Source: an uncultured Vicinamibacterales bacterium (GTDB taxonomy: Bacteria > Acidobacteriota > Vicinamibacteria > Vicinamibacterales > UBA8438). From it: 64,000 nucleotides of DNA. The first letter of the stretch is position 1. Each line of letters starts with the position of its first letter. This document shows, piece after piece, positions 23,028-59,028 of the stretch. The stretch is from assembly GCA_958295905.1 (NCBI GenBank), contig OY282382.1, positions 2,256,001 to 2,320,000 of the forward strand, given 5' to 3'. A program made the position numbers and the translations under genes. Under the pieces are notes generated by a model. The model saw only the letters and a program-made list of their open reading frames with translations. It did no database searches and had not been told where the DNA came from.

Positions 23028-23069
23028 GTCGCCGTAGGAGTTTCGCGCCAGCGAAACTCCTACGGCGAC
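23028..23069. repeat. Perfect 19-bp inverted repeat (hairpin)
   Basis: GTCGCCGTAGGAGTTTCGC at 23028-23046 is followed by the loop GCCA and its exact reverse complement at 23051-23069. It lies in the gap between the cytochrome and the glyoxalase-fold gene. There is no T tract, so it may be a REP-like element or a bidirectional transcript end rather than a classical terminator. Confidence 0.85.
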
Positions 23070-44599: not shown

Positions 44600-44673
44600 T
44601 GGGAGGTCGTTCAATGGTAGGACACGTGGCTCTGGACCACGGTATCGGGGTTCGAATCCCTGCCTCCCAGCCA
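44600..44673 (+). tRNA. tRNA-Gln (CUG anticodon)
   Basis: The 74-nt sequence folds as a cloverleaf. The acceptor stem TGGGAGG pairs with CCTCCCA. The D arm carries AATGGTA. The anticodon stem CGTGG/CCACG encloses CTCTGGA, which places CTG at positions 34-36. The T arm is CGGGGTTCGAATCCCTG, with discriminator G and an encoded CCA. It reads CAG glutamine codons. It is the only tRNA I found in the window. Confidence 0.92.
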
Positions 44674-46715: not shown

Positions 46716-48241
46716 CAGCCCGTGGTGAAAGTCGGCATTTCGGGGGATCGACACGGCGGCTCTCACGTTCTACACTGGCGGGCATGGCGATGGGCACGAC
46801 GCGCGACGACGGGTCGCAGCAATCGATGTGGGTCTCGACGGCGGATCTGCCGCGGAGCGCGGGGCATCCGTTCTACGAGCGGCTGAACGGGATTCTGGAG
46901 GCGGCCGGGTTCGACGCGTTCGTCGAAGGCCAGGTGGCGGTGGCCGGCCGGCCCAACGTGGGCAAGTCGTCGGCGCAAAGGCGGCCGGCGCGGAAGCCTG
47001 TGCGCGCCGTTCTACGCGCTGATGGGCCGGCCGAGTCTGGCTCCGGGACGCTACTTCCGCTTGCTGCTCATCGGGTATTTCGAAGGGCTGGACTCGGAGC
47101 GGGGCATTGCGTGGCGCGCGGAGGATTCGCTGAGCATGCGGGCGTTTCTGCGTTTGGCGGCGCCGGCGGCTCCGCCGGACCATTCGACGATTTCGCGGAC
47201 GCGTCGGCTGTTCCCGGTGGAGACTCATCAGGCGGTGTTCACGTGGGTGCTGGAGCAGTTGGCGGGGTCGGGCCTGGTTGCGGGGAAGACGTTGGGCGTC
47301 GATGCGACGACGCTGGAGGCGAACGCGGCGCTGCGGAGCATCGTGCGTCGTGACACGGGCGAGGATTACACGGCGTTCCTGACCCGTTTGGCGAAGGCTT
47401 CGGGCATCGAGACGCCGACGGCGGAGGAGTTGGCGCGTTTTGACCGGAAGCGGAAGAAGAAGACGTCGAACAAGGATTGGACCCACCCCCACGACCCGGA
47501 CGCGAAGGTCGCGAAGATGAAGGACGGCAGCACCCACTTGGCCCACAAGATGGAGCATGCGGTGGATCTGGAGACGGGTGCGGTGGTGGGTGTGACGATC
47601 CAGGGGGCGGACAAGGGGGATACGACGACGATGGTCGAGACCCTGGTGACGGCGGCGGAGCAGGTGGAGGCGGTGTTGCCGGCGGCGTCGGGGGTTTCGG
47701 AGGTGGTTGCGGACAAGGGCTATCACAGCAACGGGACGCTGGTGGATCTGGCGGCGGTGGGGGTTCGGAGCTACATTGCGGAGCCGGATCGGGGCCGGCG
47801 GTGCTGGAGGAACGCGCCGCAGGCTCGGGACGCGGTGTATGGGAACCGGCGCCGGATCCGGGGCCGGCGGGGCCGTCGTTTGCTGCGGCGTCGTGGGGAG
47901 TTGGTGGAGCGTCCGTTTGCGCACCTGTTTGAGACTGGTGGGATGCGCCGGGTGCGCCTTCGGGGGCATTCGAACATTCTGAAGCGCCTGCTGGTGCACG
48001 TCGCGGGCCTCAACCTCGGGCTGCTTCTGCGTCACGTGATCGGCGTCGGCACGCCCCGCGGCCTGCGGGGCGGGGTGGTATCCGCCGTCTGCGGGCTGCT
48101 CGGGCGGTTTGTGGTCCTGTGGAGCGGTCTGGAGCGGCTCTTGACGCGATTCCGGCCCAATTCGGCGCGGGTCGCTGCGCTATCGAGCCACCGACCCCTT
48201 CAGCCAGCCATCTGAACACCGAGGACTTCTACTACGGGCTG
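46716..48241 (+). mobile_element. IS1182-like insertion sequence, full length with target duplication
   Basis: The element of 1,526 bp has terminal inverted repeats CAGCCCGTGGTGAAAGTC (46716-46733) and GACTTCTACTACGGGCTG (48224-48241), matching at 16 of 18 positions. The 4-bp direct repeat CTAT lies on both sides (46712-46715 and 48242-48245). It has inserted in the istA relic. The transposase inside is broken by a 68-bp insertion. Right-end relics of related elements are at 6133-6311 and 36781-37190. Confidence 0.88.
46784..48215 (+). pseudogene. IS1182/IS5-like transposase, frame broken near the N-terminus
   Basis: The N-terminal part STADLPRSAGHPFYERLNGI and GFDAFVEG is followed by an extra 68 bp (46925-46992) bounded by GAAG repeats, which shifts the frame. 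The rest continues from CAPFY and MGRPSLAPGRYFRLLLIGYF at 47022 to 48215. The DDE residues are in LGVDATTLEANAAL, VVADKGYHSNG and LVERPFAHLFETGG. The extra segment encodes VAVAGRPNVGKSS, a P-loop-like sequence found in Era/Der GTPases. Without the insert, a protein of about 450 residues would be made. Confidence 0.8.
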
Positions 48242-48245
48242 CTAT

Positions 48246-48285
48246 AACTGGGGCCGTGGCCCTCCAGAAACTGGGGCCGCGGCGC
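48246..48285. mobile_element. End repeats of the interrupted IS21-like element
   Basis: AACTGGGGCCG occurs at 48246-48256 and 48269-48279, 23 bp apart, with GTGGCCCTC between them. The layout is the same as the pair at 34711-34747. It lies directly after the target duplication of the IS1182-like element, so it marks the right end of the IS21-like relic that began before 45.4 kb. Confidence 0.55.
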
Positions 48286-48351
48286 GCGTCAGATCCGGTA
48301 CATGTCCATGCCACGTGTCCACGTGACCACCGGATCAAGCCTTCCCGCAGG

Positions 48352-48395
48352 GAAAAATATTGGGTGAGCGACGCCGGAACCGGGGTCGCTCACCC
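48352..48395 (-). terminator. Rho-independent terminator for minus-strand transcription
   Basis: GGGTGAGCGAC (48362-48372) and GTCGCTCACCC (48385-48395) form a perfect 11-bp stem. On the minus strand the stem is followed by AATATTTTTCCC, a T-rich tract. This marks the 3' end of a transcript that comes from about 49 kb leftwards and contains the two palindromic elements. Confidence 0.7.
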
Positions 48396-48410
48396 TCTGT
48401 ACGTTCTTCT

Positions 48411-48540
48411 TCTGGAGGGGTGCGTACCGTGCAATGTTGCACTGAATACGGGGGTCTGGGGACTCAGAGTAGTGCACTTCTCTGAGCCCTCGGCTTATTA
48501 GACGCCCATTCCACAGGGTTTGTTCCCGACGATTCACGTT
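48411..48540 (-). repeat. Structured palindromic element, copy A
   Basis: On the minus strand this copy has GGGCGTCTAATAAGCC, then GGGCTCAGAG and a loop around GTGCAC, then CTCTGAGTCCCC. The palindrome is centred on GTGCAC. It shares its order of blocks (GTCTAA, GGGC, arms around AGTGCACT, CCCC) with copy B at 48668-48790. It lies just upstream of the minus-strand terminator. No coding region covers it. Confidence 0.65.
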
Positions 48541-48667
48541 TTTCCAACTCTATGCATTTCCCCGGCGACTGTCCCACTCAAGCGCATCCGTAGCACCTTT
48601 GGAGGGCCCGGCAACAGACGCCTTCCACGGCCCCAGTTCGGTTTCAGGGCAATGTGACACCGTGACA

Positions 48668-48790
48668 TTGCACGGTGAATTATGCACGCGGACACGTGCA
48701 ATTTGGATGGCTGAAATGTGGGACTGGGGGTATCGAGCAGTGCACTGCTCGACGCCCTCCAGTTAGACGAAATTTCGCAGGATCTGGTTC
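48668..48790 (-). repeat. Structured palindromic element, copy B
   Basis: The centre is the perfect 20-bp palindrome TCGAGCAGTGCACTGCTCGA (about 48733-48752), lengthened by a CTGGAGG/CCCCCAG outer stem. On the minus strand GTCTAAC precedes the hairpin. The plus strand shows a second small hairpin next to it (CACCGTG, loop, CACGGTG). Copy A has the same order of parts. No protein-coding function is visible. Confidence 0.7.
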
Positions 48791-48799
48791 CAGGTTGCG

Positions 48800-49140
48800 A
48801 CTTCTGTCGCTGTGCTCGGCGTTTGGCGGCGCACCTCGAGCATCGCTGCTGACCGTCTCTGCTTCCGCCGCGGCGCATACGATGCAGATCCCTTCTCGAC
48901 TCAGCCGCTCGCGTCTTGCGTTCGAGAATCTGCGCTGGCGTCGTGCGTGCGTGCGCTGGCCGGCACACCTCGCATCGGGGGGCGGCGTTCGGTTTCCCGC
49001 AACCGCGGCATGCGCCCTCGGTTGCCAAGCGGCGGCGGTCGCGGTGCTCCGCGTCGATGGTGGGTCCGGTCGCACGTGTCGCAGAGTCGGCGGCCATCTG
49101 CGGGAGGATGGCGCCGGCAGCCTGAACATGTGCCTGGTGG
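48800..49140 (-). pseudogene. Decayed Cys-rich zinc-ribbon repeat region
   Basis: On the minus strand three consecutive units encode paired CxxC knuckles, but in different frames: PGTCSGCRRHPPADGRRLCDTCDR (49138-49068), EGACRGCGKPNAAPRCEVC (49025-48959) and EGICIVC followed after a shift by RCSRCAAKRR (about 48905-48826). This resembles proteins with repeated C-x2-C-x9-12-C-x2-C zinc ribbons. The frame changes make an intact product unlikely unless the gene is spread over indels. A minus-strand terminator lies downstream. Confidence 0.45.
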
Positions 49141-50098
49141 CGCTGCTGACTCCGGCGAGGGTACCTGGACGCCGGAGCGCCATTCCCACGGGTCTGGACT
49201 TGTGGTGGTGCGAATACAGCAGTGGATGGTGCTATCGGAGAGCTGTTCGGTGGTGAGGATGTCCTTCCGGTGGATGATCTTCGTCGCTTCGTGGGGTGCG
49301 GCGTCGCTCTATGCCTGCCGGGCGCGGTGTACTGCTCGAGGCTCTCGCCCGGTAACGCCTGAGTGTGGAGGGTGTCCCTTCGCGTGGTTCGCTCGACGGA
49401 TGTGGACCACGGCGCGCGTCTGTACGCCCCGCCGGCGGTTCGTCCCCGGCGTATTTCGTGCGTCGGGGGGGTGGCCGTCACTGTACGCCTCGTCACGGCG
49501 ATCCGCGGCTGCACGCCCTCTGCCTGCTGTACGGCGCGAGGGCGCGGTCGCTGGACGCGCGTTTGTGCAAGCACGTTCTGCTGTGCGGCGTGGAAGGCGT
49601 GTCTGTTGTATGCGTCATCAGCACGTAGCTGGTTGTAGGCGCTCGGCGTCGGCGGTCATCAAGCGGGTCCGGTCAGGGGGCTGCCTCGGCGTCGGCGTCG
49701 GCGCGCTCACGCGTCGGTTGTCGGCGCTGCCCTGCTGCTGGGACCTGGCGACTCGGGGGGGATGACGGAGTGCGTTACGTCGCGGACGCCTGGCGCGCGA
49801 TGCTGGCCGACTGGATTGCAGGCTGCCGGCGGCATGGTGTGCGATCGGTGGTGTGCCCAACCTGCGGTCCACATGGCGGCCGCGTTGCGTGCGGTTGGGG
49901 GGGGCATCCCGATCAGGCTCACGTCGAGTCGTCGGCGCGCGCGGCGCGGGAACGTGCGCGGGATAGACCATCGGATGGGAACCCGGATCAGCCGACGCCT
50001 TCGTGTCGCCGAGATCGCGCCAGCGAGCCCAGAGGACACGCTGCAGTGTGTCGTGTTGTCGCCGCCCCGAATCGTCCGGGTTGTCCTCGCGGTCGGCT
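49141..50098. other. Accessory stretch without a convincing gene
   Basis: Frames run in both directions but none is recognised. A plus-strand frame at 49770-50138 opens with GTG (VRYVADAWRAMLADW) and contains CPTCGPHGG, but start and length are doubtful. At 49300-49610 the plus strand has five irregularly spaced LYA-type codon groups (for example SLYASSRRS and LLYASSARS), which may be a decayed short repeat. Confidence 0.35.
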
Positions 50099-51173: not shown

Positions 51174-51581
51174 TGAGGGCGCGTCGGTACGTCCGATGCC
51201 GGTCCATCGCGGTTTCGGGCGCCTCGGATCGGGCGGCGGCACGGGAGGGGTTGCCGAGCGCGCCCGGACGCCGGGCGGCTTTCGCCCGTCTCGGTTCGGG
51301 TGGCGGGCGGTCGGAGTCGGGCGTCGGGCGCCTGCCGCTGCTACTACTTGAGCGAACGGTCGCGAGGAGACCTTCGTCGTGGTGTCCACTACATCGAACC
51401 TGTTCGGCAGGGGAACGACCTGCTCCGGAACGGTCTCCACACTCGAGGAGAACGCCGACCCGGCCCTCCACCCCGAGGCCGCCGACGACTGATCCGGACG
51501 CCACAGGGCGACTGACAGCGGCAACGGGCTGGAATGGCAGTTCCCGCCGCCGGGGGCCGCAGACGCCAGACAGGAACCGGA

Positions 51582-52469
51582 ATGTCCAGGAGCGACGACG
51601 AACGAGCCGCCGGACGGGCCGAGTGCTTCGCCCGGCTGGTCCTGGCCGGACAGGAAGACGCGCACGGCCGCAGCCTGCTCGACAACGCCGAGCGGCTGAC
51701 CGACCGACTCCCGATGTGCTGGGAGAAGGAGGTCGGCTGGCTGACCGCATCACTGGGAGCCGACCGGGTCGACGAGACCACGCTGCTGGGGGTCGGCTTC
51801 AACATCCAGCAGGTGCGCCACGCCACCGTGGTGAAGCCGCGCGAGGGCGAGCGTCCCGGCGACTACGCCGAACGCATCGCGATCTACAACGAACCGGACG
51901 CCTTCGCGGTAGCGGGGGCAATGCTCGAAGACGCCGCGGCCATCAACCCGGCAGTCCCGATCGAGACCACCGACGCCGCGCGACGCAACGCCATCGAGCG
52001 GCTGGACCACGCGATGGAGCAGTGGTATGCGGACAGCCGGGAAGGAAAGCCGCCTCCAGCCGGCGGGATGGCCGGCGGCCAGCCCACGGCTCCCGGACTC
52101 TCGGCGGCGCTGCTGCGGATGCGGCGCCACACGCAGATGGCGCTGCTGAGCCTCGACGAGATGACGCGGGGGCCGAGCAACAAGCGCTGGGGAATCATCG
52201 AGCGGCTCGACGCCGGCGACGTCATCGTGTTCATCGACGCTGCGTTCGAAGCGCTCCGACTCGCCGCCGCGATCGTCGCGGAGACGTCCATCGGCACACC
52301 GGCCCCGGCGACGAACGAAGACCGGCAGGCTCTGCAAGCAGCGCGCGAGGCCCGCCAGACCGGCCTGCAGGCAATCAGCGCGACAGCCTCGATCATCGAG
52401 CGGATCGCCACGCGGATCCTCGAATTGCCAGCACCAGAGGGCAACGACGACAGCGCGATGGTCCACTGA
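51582..52469 (+). CDS. Hypothetical protein, mostly helical
   Basis: The 295-residue soluble protein begins MSRSDDERAAGRAECFARLVLAG; a longer start at 51534 is possible. Helical segments with regular Ala/Leu/Glu spacing fill the C-terminal half (ALLRMRRHTQMALLSLDEMTRG, AFEALRLAAAIVAETSIG, then ASIIERIATRILELPAPEG). It has no membrane span and no recognised motif. The codon pattern is convincing in a surrounding where most frames are poor, so it is one of the few intact genes of the accessory region. It precedes the ParB-like relic and the methyltransferase-like gene on the same strand. Confidence 0.6.
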   Translation: MSRSDDERAAGRAECFARLVLAGQEDAHGRSLLDNAERLTDRLPMCWEKEVGWLTASLGADRVDETTLLGVGFNIQQVRHATVVKPREGERPGDYAERIAIYNEPDAFAVAGAMLEDAAAINPAVPIETTDAARRNAIERLDHAMEQWYADSREGKPPPAGGMAGGQPTAPGLSAALLRMRRHTQMALLSLDEMTRGPSNKRWGIIERLDAGDVIVFIDAAFEALRLAAAIVAETSIGTPAPATNEDRQALQAAREARQTGLQAISATASIIERIATRILELPAPEGNDDSAMVH

Positions 52470-52905: not shown

Positions 52906-53692
52906 AAACCTGGGGCGGCGACCCACATTTTCCCCGAAGGCGACCCGGCGCCGCGATCCAGATCAACCATGCGGGGGCTGCCGCCTGCGGCAGCTCTCGC
53001 GCTCCGCTTCAGCGGACCGCTTCTGCGTCGGCGAAGACACCGCGCGGTCGTCGCGCTGCAGGATGGCGAAGTATTGGTGCGCGAGAGCATCGCCTTGCTC
53101 AGCCGCGCGGCGATACCCGAGGCCGTGAAGATGTTGCCGCGTCACCATCGGCCGCCGCTCCAGGACGGCCCCTCGGCCGCTACGGCGTCCGGCCGGCTGC
53201 TCGTGCGGCGGCCATCGGCTGCCTGCATGCCGAGCTGGCGATCCATCGGCCGGCCGCAGATGGCCAGCGTCCCGAATACTTGCTCCATACGCGGACAGTC
53301 ACGTCCGGAAGGGAGGCGGTATGGATGACAGGAGCACGGTGACGGCGGTCGATGCCGAACGGGCGCCAAGCGGCAATGACGGGACCACGCCACCACCGCC
53401 GTCGGTGGCGCTGGCCAGGATGGACCCGGCCGACGTCGAGACCGTCTTCGCGCGGGTCGAGCAATCGATCGCAGACTTGCCGAACACCGTCAAGGCGATC
53501 GAGTGGCGCGACGGACTCAAGGCGGTAGAGGCGGCGGCGGCGGTGCTCGACCGGCACGATATCCGGGCGGCGGCGGCGCGGGCGGTGGCCGAAGTCGAGC
53601 AGTGGATCGCCAAGCGGCATCCCCCGCGTCCGGTGGGCAGGCCGCCGAAGACGGAAGCGGACGAAAACCTGGGGCGGCGACCCACATTTTCC
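52906..53692. repeat. Exact 28-bp direct repeats
   Basis: A 28-bp sequence beginning AAACCTGGGGCGGCGACCCA lies at 52906-52933 and again at 53665-53692. The second copy is inside the methyltransferase-like gene, where it encodes NLGRRPTF. The bases around the two copies also resemble each other weakly, so the left copy may be a decayed paralogue of that part of the gene. Confidence 0.75.
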
Positions 53693-54965: not shown

Positions 54966-55632
54966 GACCCGTTCGGCCGCGCGGAGCTCGCGACGACCGG
55001 TGCTGGACGACTGGCGGCGGCCGTCGCTGCAACCTGGCATGGCCGCGGGCCGGAACGACTGGATCCTCTCGCGGCGGAAGTCGCCGACCGCGCGCGTGCA
55101 ACTTCGTGTCGTGGTGGCGCGACGCTGACGAGGGAGCAAGGGTGTGCCACCCGCGCTGGCGCTGCGCGGGTAGGTACGCCGAGCAGACCCAGCTTGCGAG
55201 CACGAGCCCGATCTGACAGGGTGGGTCGCCGCCGTCCCATGCCGTTCGGCCTGGCGGCTGGGGGAGAGCCGTCGGATCTGCGCAGATGCCTGGAGCGGGA
55301 GCGTTTTCTCCGGAGGACATCCCTGTTCAAACCCAGTGTGGCGGCGCTCCTGCTCACGACCAGCGTGAACCGACGAACATCCTCGGGCAGGCGGCCGTGG
55401 AGTATCGCGGGGACCGAGTGTACGCCGTCGTCACTTGCTATGACCGTGGTCAAACCCCGCAGAGCCCTGGCTGCTGATCCGCCTCGGCTTGACGTTGAAG
55501 ACTCCCGCGTGGATCACGCGAGACGATTTCACGCTGACGAGGCCGGACGGTCGTATTGTCGGGACGCCGTCGGTCTCCGAGGGGCGCCGAACGCGGTCAG
55601 CATCATTGCGATGCTGGCACGGGCTCGGTCGG

Positions 55633-57559
<1,927 letters not shown>

Positions 57560-57721
57560 CCTTTCCACGGTCGTCTTGCTCTTTCCACGACGGGACCAGG
57601 ACGGTCCGCCGGGCATCGGGGACGGCAGTGCGGGCTTGTAGCGCTTCGAGGTTCGCGCCGAGGCGCAGCCGTCCAGCCGGCCGCCGCCGCGGGGCGGAGC
57701 GGCTTCGGACGCCTGCAGCCG

Positions 57722-58111
57722 CTACCACCGCAGGCAGGGGTCGCCGAGAGCGGACAGGTCGTCGAGGACGGGGACGGCGGCGGGGATGTGGGCGGGCGCG
57801 TCGGCGTGCTGCCGTGCGTCGTCTTCGAGAGCGGCGTTCTCGAGCAGGGCGGTGATGGCGACCTCGGCTTGGTTCAGCGCGTACTTCAGGAGCCACGTCC
57901 GGCGGTTGTGGCAGTAGATGCAGCGGCTGCTCTCGGGCCAGATGAGGCGGCCGCAGGTGCCGGCCTCGATGGGCAGGTCGACGCCGGGGCACAACAACTT
58001 GCGGTTGATGTCGGCGCGGGTGCGGCGCATCAGCTCACGGTTGGCGATGCGCCGGCGGAGCCTGCGCAGCCAAGCGCGCTGTTCGGGGCGGAGCAGTTCG
58101 ATGAGGGGCAT
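57722..58111 (-). CDS. Small zinc-ribbon hypothetical protein
   Basis: The 129-residue protein starts behind GGAGGACAACC. It has an N-terminal basic helix (PEQRAWLRRLRRRIANRELMRR), four cysteines in a ribbon-like arrangement (LLCPGVDLP, GTCGRLIW, SSRCIYCHNR) and a helical tail (ALNQAEVAITALLENAALE). It lies upstream of the lon-type gene on the same strand and could share its operon. The family is unknown to me. The cysteine spacing suggests zinc binding rather than haem, as the protein has no export signal. Confidence 0.55.
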   Translation of the reverse strand: MPLIELLRPEQRAWLRRLRRRIANRELMRRTRADINRKLLCPGVDLPIEAGTCGRLIWPESSRCIYCHNRRTWLLKYALNQAEVAITALLENAALEDDARQHADAPAHIPAAVPVLDDLSALGDPCLRW

Positions 58112-59028
58112 GGTTGTCCTCCGGGAAAGGGAATGGCCCGGCAGGGCCGGGCGGAGCGGGCCGTCGGCCCAGGGCGTGCCGTCTCGCGGCGGTCTGCCGC
58201 GTCGGGCGTGGAGGGAGCGCGTAAGCGGGAGGCGTGGAGAAAGGGCGCAAAGCGGGGCGTTGCCTTGCCCGCCGGCGCCGTTCCCGTGTGCCGCTACGCT
58301 TGTTCCTGTTCCATTGTCGTTCCGCCCACCTGCTCCTCCGTGGTTCGTTTCCGCGCCGACTCGGGGAGGCGCGGCGGCTTCGCCGGCGGGCGGTTCGTCA
58401 GGTCAGGCGGTCGCGCGCGGCGGCGGGCGTCCGGCGCTTGTGGCCGTGTGGACAACCGGGCGCGGGTATCTGCGGTGGTTGCTCGGTCCAGCAGTTTCCG
58501 GCGGGCGCCGGTGGGCGTGGGCGTGGGCGTGGCCGTTCAACTCTGCGCGAGCGGGAGCTGGCGCCTGGTCTTCAACCGCGCACCTCCGGTCTGCGCGGCG
58601 CGTGGACAACAGGATGGCCCCACGGGACGCCAACAACACCGGGGACGCCGGGGACAGCCGGCGCCCGGGTCGGCTTCGCCGCGAGCGCGACACCCCGGTC
58701 CTGCTGGACATCTTCCTGAGGTCTTTCCCCGGGCGGTGATCCAGCGCGACTCGACGGCCATCCCCGCGCCGGCAATCCGCCCCTGCAAATCTGTGCGGTT
58801 CCGTCTCCCCACATCGCCGCCTCTCCGGGTAGACGACCGGGGTCACCTGCTCGACGAGCTGTTGCTGGCCGGCCGGAACGTGGAGTCGGACGCATTGGAC
58901 GCGCCGACGGTGGCGATCCGCTGCCGACCGACAATGCTCACCACCCTGCGCGCCGCTGCCAGTTGCCGACAGGGACGCATTCCGGTCCACGCTGCGCAGG
59001 AGGAAGCCCTGAAGGGGGAGGTGCAGGC
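58112..59028. other. Gap between zinc-ribbon protein and AlpA-like gene
   Basis: No frame in this stretch of about 900 bp has a convincing start and product. It contains a hexanucleotide run of about four GTGGGC-type units near 58512. The upstream promoter of the minus-strand zinc-ribbon/lon pair should be in its left part. Confidence 0.4.

Follow-up and report, generated by a model that had tools for sequence, protein, structure and literature searches.

Positions 48339-48397 of the window, the 64,000-nucleotide stretch of DNA analysed here, very probably hold one copy of a non-coding element that is structured and strand-specific and belongs to integrative mobile islands of Acidobacteriota. 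We are equally confident that the element forms a real family, present in multiple copies and borne by mobile islands across this phylum. Within our scans of Rfam, plasmids and IMG/VR and a limited literature search, this hairpin-forming element was previously unlisted. The features discussed below are collected in Table 1.

Table 1. Position and strand of the element and of neighbouring features in the window
Feature	Position	Strand	Remarks
tRNA-Gln(CTG)	44600..44673	+	Left edge of probable island; island extent inferred at ~44.7-60 kb
IS1182-type transposase	47022-48215		Left of element
Iteron-like repeat AACTGGGGCCGTGG	48246..48259	+	23 bp ahead of next repeat
Iteron-like repeat AACTGGGGCCGCGG	48269..48282	+	
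Two-hairpin element, type 1 (short loop)	48339..48397	+	Core of the finding; matched by covariance models R1, R2 and R3
Hairpin 1, TTCCC-GCA-GGGAA	48342..48354	+	Covariation CG/TA/AT at the pair adjoining the GCA triloop
Hairpin 2, GGGTGAGCGACGCCGG-AA-CCGGGGTCGCTCACCC	48362..48395	+	16-bp arms; outer pairs covary among lineages; "terminator" of the preliminary description
Palindrome A, imperfect, CTCAGAGTAGTGCACTTCTCTGAG	48463..48486	.	Score 9
GTCTAAT box of A	48497..48503	-	TTAGAC on + at 48498-48503
Iteron-like repeat, inverted copy	48625..48638	-	Between A and B
Palindrome B, perfect 20-bp dyad, TCGAGCAGTGCACTGCTCGA	48733..48752	.	Score 10
GTCTAAC box of B	48762..48768	-	TTAGAC on + at 48763-48768
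Family c2 island gene, function unassigned	51534..52469	+	Intact ORF; 46-93% identity to relatives' island homologues
Truncated Lon-like AAA+ ATPase, island gene	55529..57616	-	Probably decayed

The element is laid out as GCCTTCC-N-GCA-N'-GGAAAAAT, with a long stem TGAGCGAC...GTCGCTCA next. Its invariant box GCCTTCCCGCAGGGAAAAA(T/C) itself folds into hairpin 1, the second hairpin completes the block, and loop and linker sequence is conserved (GCA triloop, GGAnnAAT). Hairpin 2 scored 12; the highest score among 300 dinucleotide shuffles was 7.5. The preliminary description had read it as a clear rho-independent terminator of the minus strand, closing a small RNA that would include palindromes A and B. 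The window's subtype does show a GC-rich hairpin followed on the minus strand by AATATTTTT, the complement of linker GGGAAAAAT. However, relatives carry GGGAAGAAT or GGGATCAAT in place of this linker, and the long-loop and distant lineages lack the T-run while keeping the hairpins. Hairpin 1, which lies past the end of the supposed terminator, is the most conserved part of the element, and wobble pairs favour the plus strand (see below). A terminator is thus very unlikely, and hairpin 2 is better described as part of a conserved element whose T-run is missing outside subtype 1.

Selection on structure, which the preliminary description had proposed, was borne out by an alignment of 17 elements in which long loops were cut to six bases. 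In this alignment 96.6% of pair cells were paired, and two-sided changes numbered 29 against a shuffled mean of 9.1, a count that none of 500 shuffles reached. The covariation score was 0.265 compared with 0.069 after shuffling, every slid register scored worse, and four stem pairs swap GC/CG/AT or TA. Compensatory changes therefore preserve the helices across homologues, as in a structured RNA or ssDNA element, and the original guess of a non-coding RNA, a recombination site or part of an unknown element was right. Among eight long-loop sequences, a tally by eye from the pair table gave about 31 G.U cells on the plus strand versus 2 A.C cells, a count that is indicative only because the sequences are related. 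In the basal helix alone (20 elements) wobble was balanced, with 4 G.U versus 4 A.C, so the third hairpin and the inner helices of the long-loop form account for the asymmetry. On this pairing pattern, the element points to a single-stranded molecule of the plus strand, either RNA or ssDNA.

A DNA search among 60 relatives showed that the repeated unit is the terminator-like block and not palindromes A and B. Block matches spanned 55-76 bp at 84-98% identity; two genomes of sister genera had them at many loci, a third had fewer and there is one here; the palindromes with their adjoining hairpin occur once in the window's own genome. We then relied on three covariance models: R1, built on the short-loop block with the window copy among its training sequences; R2, built from long-loop copies alone; and R3, built on a mixed set without the window copy. 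All three matched the window copy, with E-values of 1.5e-19, 3.9e-4 and 2.4e-7, respectively, single-genome values being rough owing to short calibrations. R1 also detected the long-loop form in further genera of the family, among them the window's own. This form has the same box, a stem CCCTGAGCGACCCC...GGGGTCGCTCAGGG around ~72 nt and a third hairpin after it, and is conserved over ~300 bp. R2, whose match to the window copy was independent, found further copies in other Acidobacteriota families, and R3 had matches in 13 of 396 genomes of the phylum, up to nine in each, some listed matches being the reverse strand of another. Sister genera carry up to ~20 copies per genome (full R1 matches at ~10 loci in genome G012 and 14 in G018), and distant Acidobacteriota families carry 1-9. 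Contigs 3 and 15 of G018 have more than 10 kb in common; the shared sequence stops at base +59 of the element, a break that shuffling or insertion at this site could explain.

None of the 4227 families of Rfam 15 exceeded its gathering threshold, with sub-threshold chance matches only. Plasmid blastn gave zero matches with the window region as query and short chance matches with the long-loop element, an IMG/VR pattern scan gave 0 matches, and our limited, not exhaustive, literature searches did not find a description of the element. An exact-pattern scan of GTDB recovered the sister-genus loci and a partial match in Gemmatimonadetes; its matches in Clostridia, Verrucomicrobia and one LaPlata Acidobacteria genome lacked the stem and were set aside as chance. 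We also set apart the order-wide hairpins GGCGTGAGCGACCCC-N36-GGGGTCGCTCACGCC flanked by GGCGGC hairpins, which have only the stem in common with the element. These occur near position 1501 of loci L111, L114 and L117-L132, with inverted GGCGGC hairpins on each side, and mostly adjoin AbiEii-like or recombinase genes or the same winged-helix protein family that neighbours the element.

The genes around relatives' copies are those of mobile islands. At sister-genus loci, small putative ribbon-helix-helix (RHH) proteins lie 300-560 bp downstream (most loci) and ~1 kb downstream, and further island genes, SSB and RecD2-like ones among them, are close by. The RHH label is putative, as it is drawn from the sequence pattern plus a single weak match to VapB, and an AlphaFold model of the RHH1-like protein had low confidence (pLDDT 69, pTM 0.38). 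Long-loop islands carry a P4-type integrase (PF13356), AlpA, ParA and RepA_C (PF04796, E 2e-30), and in them parA and the element are a few hundred bases apart. One of them holds the integrase, MobA (PF03432), MobC (PF05713) and AlpA, then a diverged element, and relics of the MobA N terminus are present in five element-bearing contigs of G018. In distant families a winged-helix protein neighbours the element, and a P4-type integrase often lies on the far side of that protein. This wHTH protein was found near 14 loci, plus 14 of the 30 loci of the phylum scan, and its gene is often convergent with the element. Its AlphaFold model (pLDDT 87) resembles a MarR-like wHTH (best Z 8.4, rmsd 2.4, 79 residues); the C-terminal domain gave no clear fold match, and the best match in a viral library was Gp146 of Bacillus phage G. 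A Replic_Relax (PF13814) identity for this protein was rejected, with no match at element-linked loci. No one neighbour gene was found in all lineages. At two loci of one genome (L036 and L037), near-identical type I-G (Csb1/Csb2/Cas3-like) CRISPR loci with long arrays occupy the stretch from about -11 kb to the element, at which both end.

The window copy sits in a decayed, IS-interrupted island adjoining the tRNA-Gln gene. An att direct repeat of this tRNA around the island was searched for and not found, nor were RHH genes found in the island. IS21- and IS1182-type insertions lie left of the element; at 46925-46990 a VAVAGRPNVGKSS stretch, GTPase P-loop-like, breaks the IS1182-type transposase frame in its 5' part. 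Further right, ACCTGGGGCGGCGA is repeated at 52908-52921 and 53667-53680 with similar flanking translations, and a minus-strand Cys-rich ORF (57720-58177; CPGVDLP..GTCGR..) has conserved counterparts in the islands of sister genera and looks intact in the window. The decayed Cys-rich gene proposed in the preliminary description (48534-49574, minus strand) is unsupported: it has no family match, no homologue in the compared loci and flat GC by codon position. Elsewhere, the window's longest palindrome is a 42-bp hairpin at 23028-23069, GTCGCCGTAGGAGTTTCGC-GCCA-GCGAAACTCCTACGGCGAC, which is REP-like or a terminator.

Palindromes A and B are secondary, subtype-specific features. Both score above 7.5, the maximum over 300 dinucleotide shuffles for each, and the perfect palindrome and the GTCTAA beside each copy were as first described, the latter on the minus strand. 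The distance between their centres is 268 bp, whereas 255 bp had been given for the copies, and the second small hairpin said to be shared is not constant. Palindrome B has no match elsewhere in the 6.3-Mb genome at up to three mismatches. Sister-genus loci repeat a box G(T/C)CTAA(T/C) and, after it, a palindrome with AGT(A/G)(C/T)ACT at its centre; the positions relative to the element are -103, ~+150 and ~+1500 to +1840. This pattern was absent from shuffled sequence. Across 10 genomes, GAGAAGTRCACTTCTC (up to one mismatch) occurred only within ~2 kb of the element, bar one place in genome G027, and a reversed control gave 0. This near-exclusive proximity indicates that the palindrome family belongs to these islands, within a single subtype, and is unlike the scatter of dispersed REP-like palindromes. 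Changes between the arms of A and B had been described as compensatory-looking and as suggesting selection on structure; the changes are symmetrical, and this suits a two-fold protein-binding site as much as RNA. A dimeric DNA-binding protein would suit their perfect two-fold symmetry, although they may instead act as RNA. Iteron-like repeats at sister-genus loci keep the same phase (-118/-95/-71) and a spacing of 23-24 bp, and are clear in one subgroup only.

The boxes raise the reading that we consider least probable of all, that A and B are integron attC sites or IS ends delimited by GTCTAA...TTAGAC. An attC site is a folded, strand-specific hairpin in which R'' (RYYYAAC) and R' (GTTRRRY) boxes pair at the base, a consensus that GTCTAAC/GTTAGAC matches, and integron integrases are present in the order. 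Yet direct reading of A, B and loci L031 and L041 showed a single box beside each palindrome, and inspection of the A and B hairpins by eye turned up no partner R' box. The region has GYCTAAY-type boxes near A and B but neither paired R''/R' boxes nor a cassette array, and no integron integrase exceeded the family cut-off in the window's own genome or in G012, G018 and G023. At L031 and L041 the boxes flank the element in inverted orientation and homology extends past them. No IS end turned up at either palindrome; the transposases of the IS1182 and IS21 types are on the left side of the element.

That the element is an origin of transfer on which a helper relaxase acts in trans, as in the oriT mimicry of SGI1-like islands and staphylococcal plasmids, is improbable. 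A conserved non-coding hairpin adjoining conserved short sequence, on islands of differing cargo, some with mobilization genes or relics of them, speaks for such mimicry. MobA/MobC islands, however, conserve a different palindrome directly upstream of mobC, R2 had no matches at E≤1 near the relaxase genes of L146-L148 and L150-L152, the relaxase region of L149 gave a weak partial match (E 0.14), and Replic_Relax had no match at element-linked loci. The palindrome in question, CCCAATGTACGCACATTGGG, stands directly upstream of mobC-mobA in L151 and L152 and is a likely oriT of Acidobacteriota mobilizable islands. Because relatives keep it just upstream of mobC, the element is probably not the oriT of that relaxase. 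In the SGI1-type and staphylococcal reports (PMC6414798, PMC8136818, PMC5704250), oriT mimics resemble the element as non-coding sequence common to islands of unrelated cargo, and SGI1-type islands likewise have a tyrosine integrase, with mobilization genes in some; the difference here is the separate presumed oriT-like palindrome and the cognate relaxase loci that lack the element.

Tentatively, and somewhat short of even confidence, we favour a strand-specific folded site of the excised island that would serve an origin-type ssDNA mechanism. The island would be excised and handled as single-stranded DNA in replication, maintenance or transfer, and its plus strand would fold into the hairpins as an origin-type landing site. 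The iteron-like repeats and A/B-type palindromes would be double-stranded sites for island DNA-binding proteins, with the putative RHH proteins, ParA/RepA partners or the adjoining winged-helix protein as candidates. Single-strand and rolling-circle origins of plasmids and phages have strand-specific long hairpins with conserved unpaired bases. The element has hairpins of this type, on islands with RepA, ParA or SSB-like genes, but a nick site and an HUH initiator were not identified and a sequence match is absent. The integrase, AlpA, RepA_C, ParA and Mob genes that accompany copies, the multicopy, mobile nature of the element with its break at base +59, and the regular spacing of the iteron-like repeats speak for an origin-type site, against which stand the different palindrome upstream of mobC, the lack of a constant neighbour gene, the restriction of clear iteron-like repeats to one subgroup, and a wobble asymmetry that suits RNA equally and is absent in the basal helix alone.

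Nearly as likely is an island-encoded non-coding RNA of the plus strand, for example one that regulates the integrase or AlpA or is paired with the winged-helix protein. It would account for the two-sided covariation, the plus-strand wobble, the conserved loop and linker and the frequent convergence with the winged-helix gene, but it has no Rfam relative, the U-tract after the last hairpin is not conserved, the downstream gene is not constant, and the flanking repeats and palindromes better suit a DNA site. Like RNA motifs from comparative genomics (approach of PMC2864571), the element has covarying helices and is intergenic and found in mobile elements; it differs in having no Rfam match. Still more speculative is the proposal that this phylum-wide structured RNA or folded ssDNA, the winged-helix protein and the P4-type integrase may form a minimal system for island mobility, maintenance or control, with A and B as subtype-specific recognition sites.

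If the favoured reading is right, what looks like an ordinary terminator would mark the functional core of a large and little-described group of Acidobacteriota islands, which includes genomes resembling sponge symbionts. The element would then provide a searchable signature for these islands, and a structured element with an unnamed wHTH protein that are open to direct functional testing.
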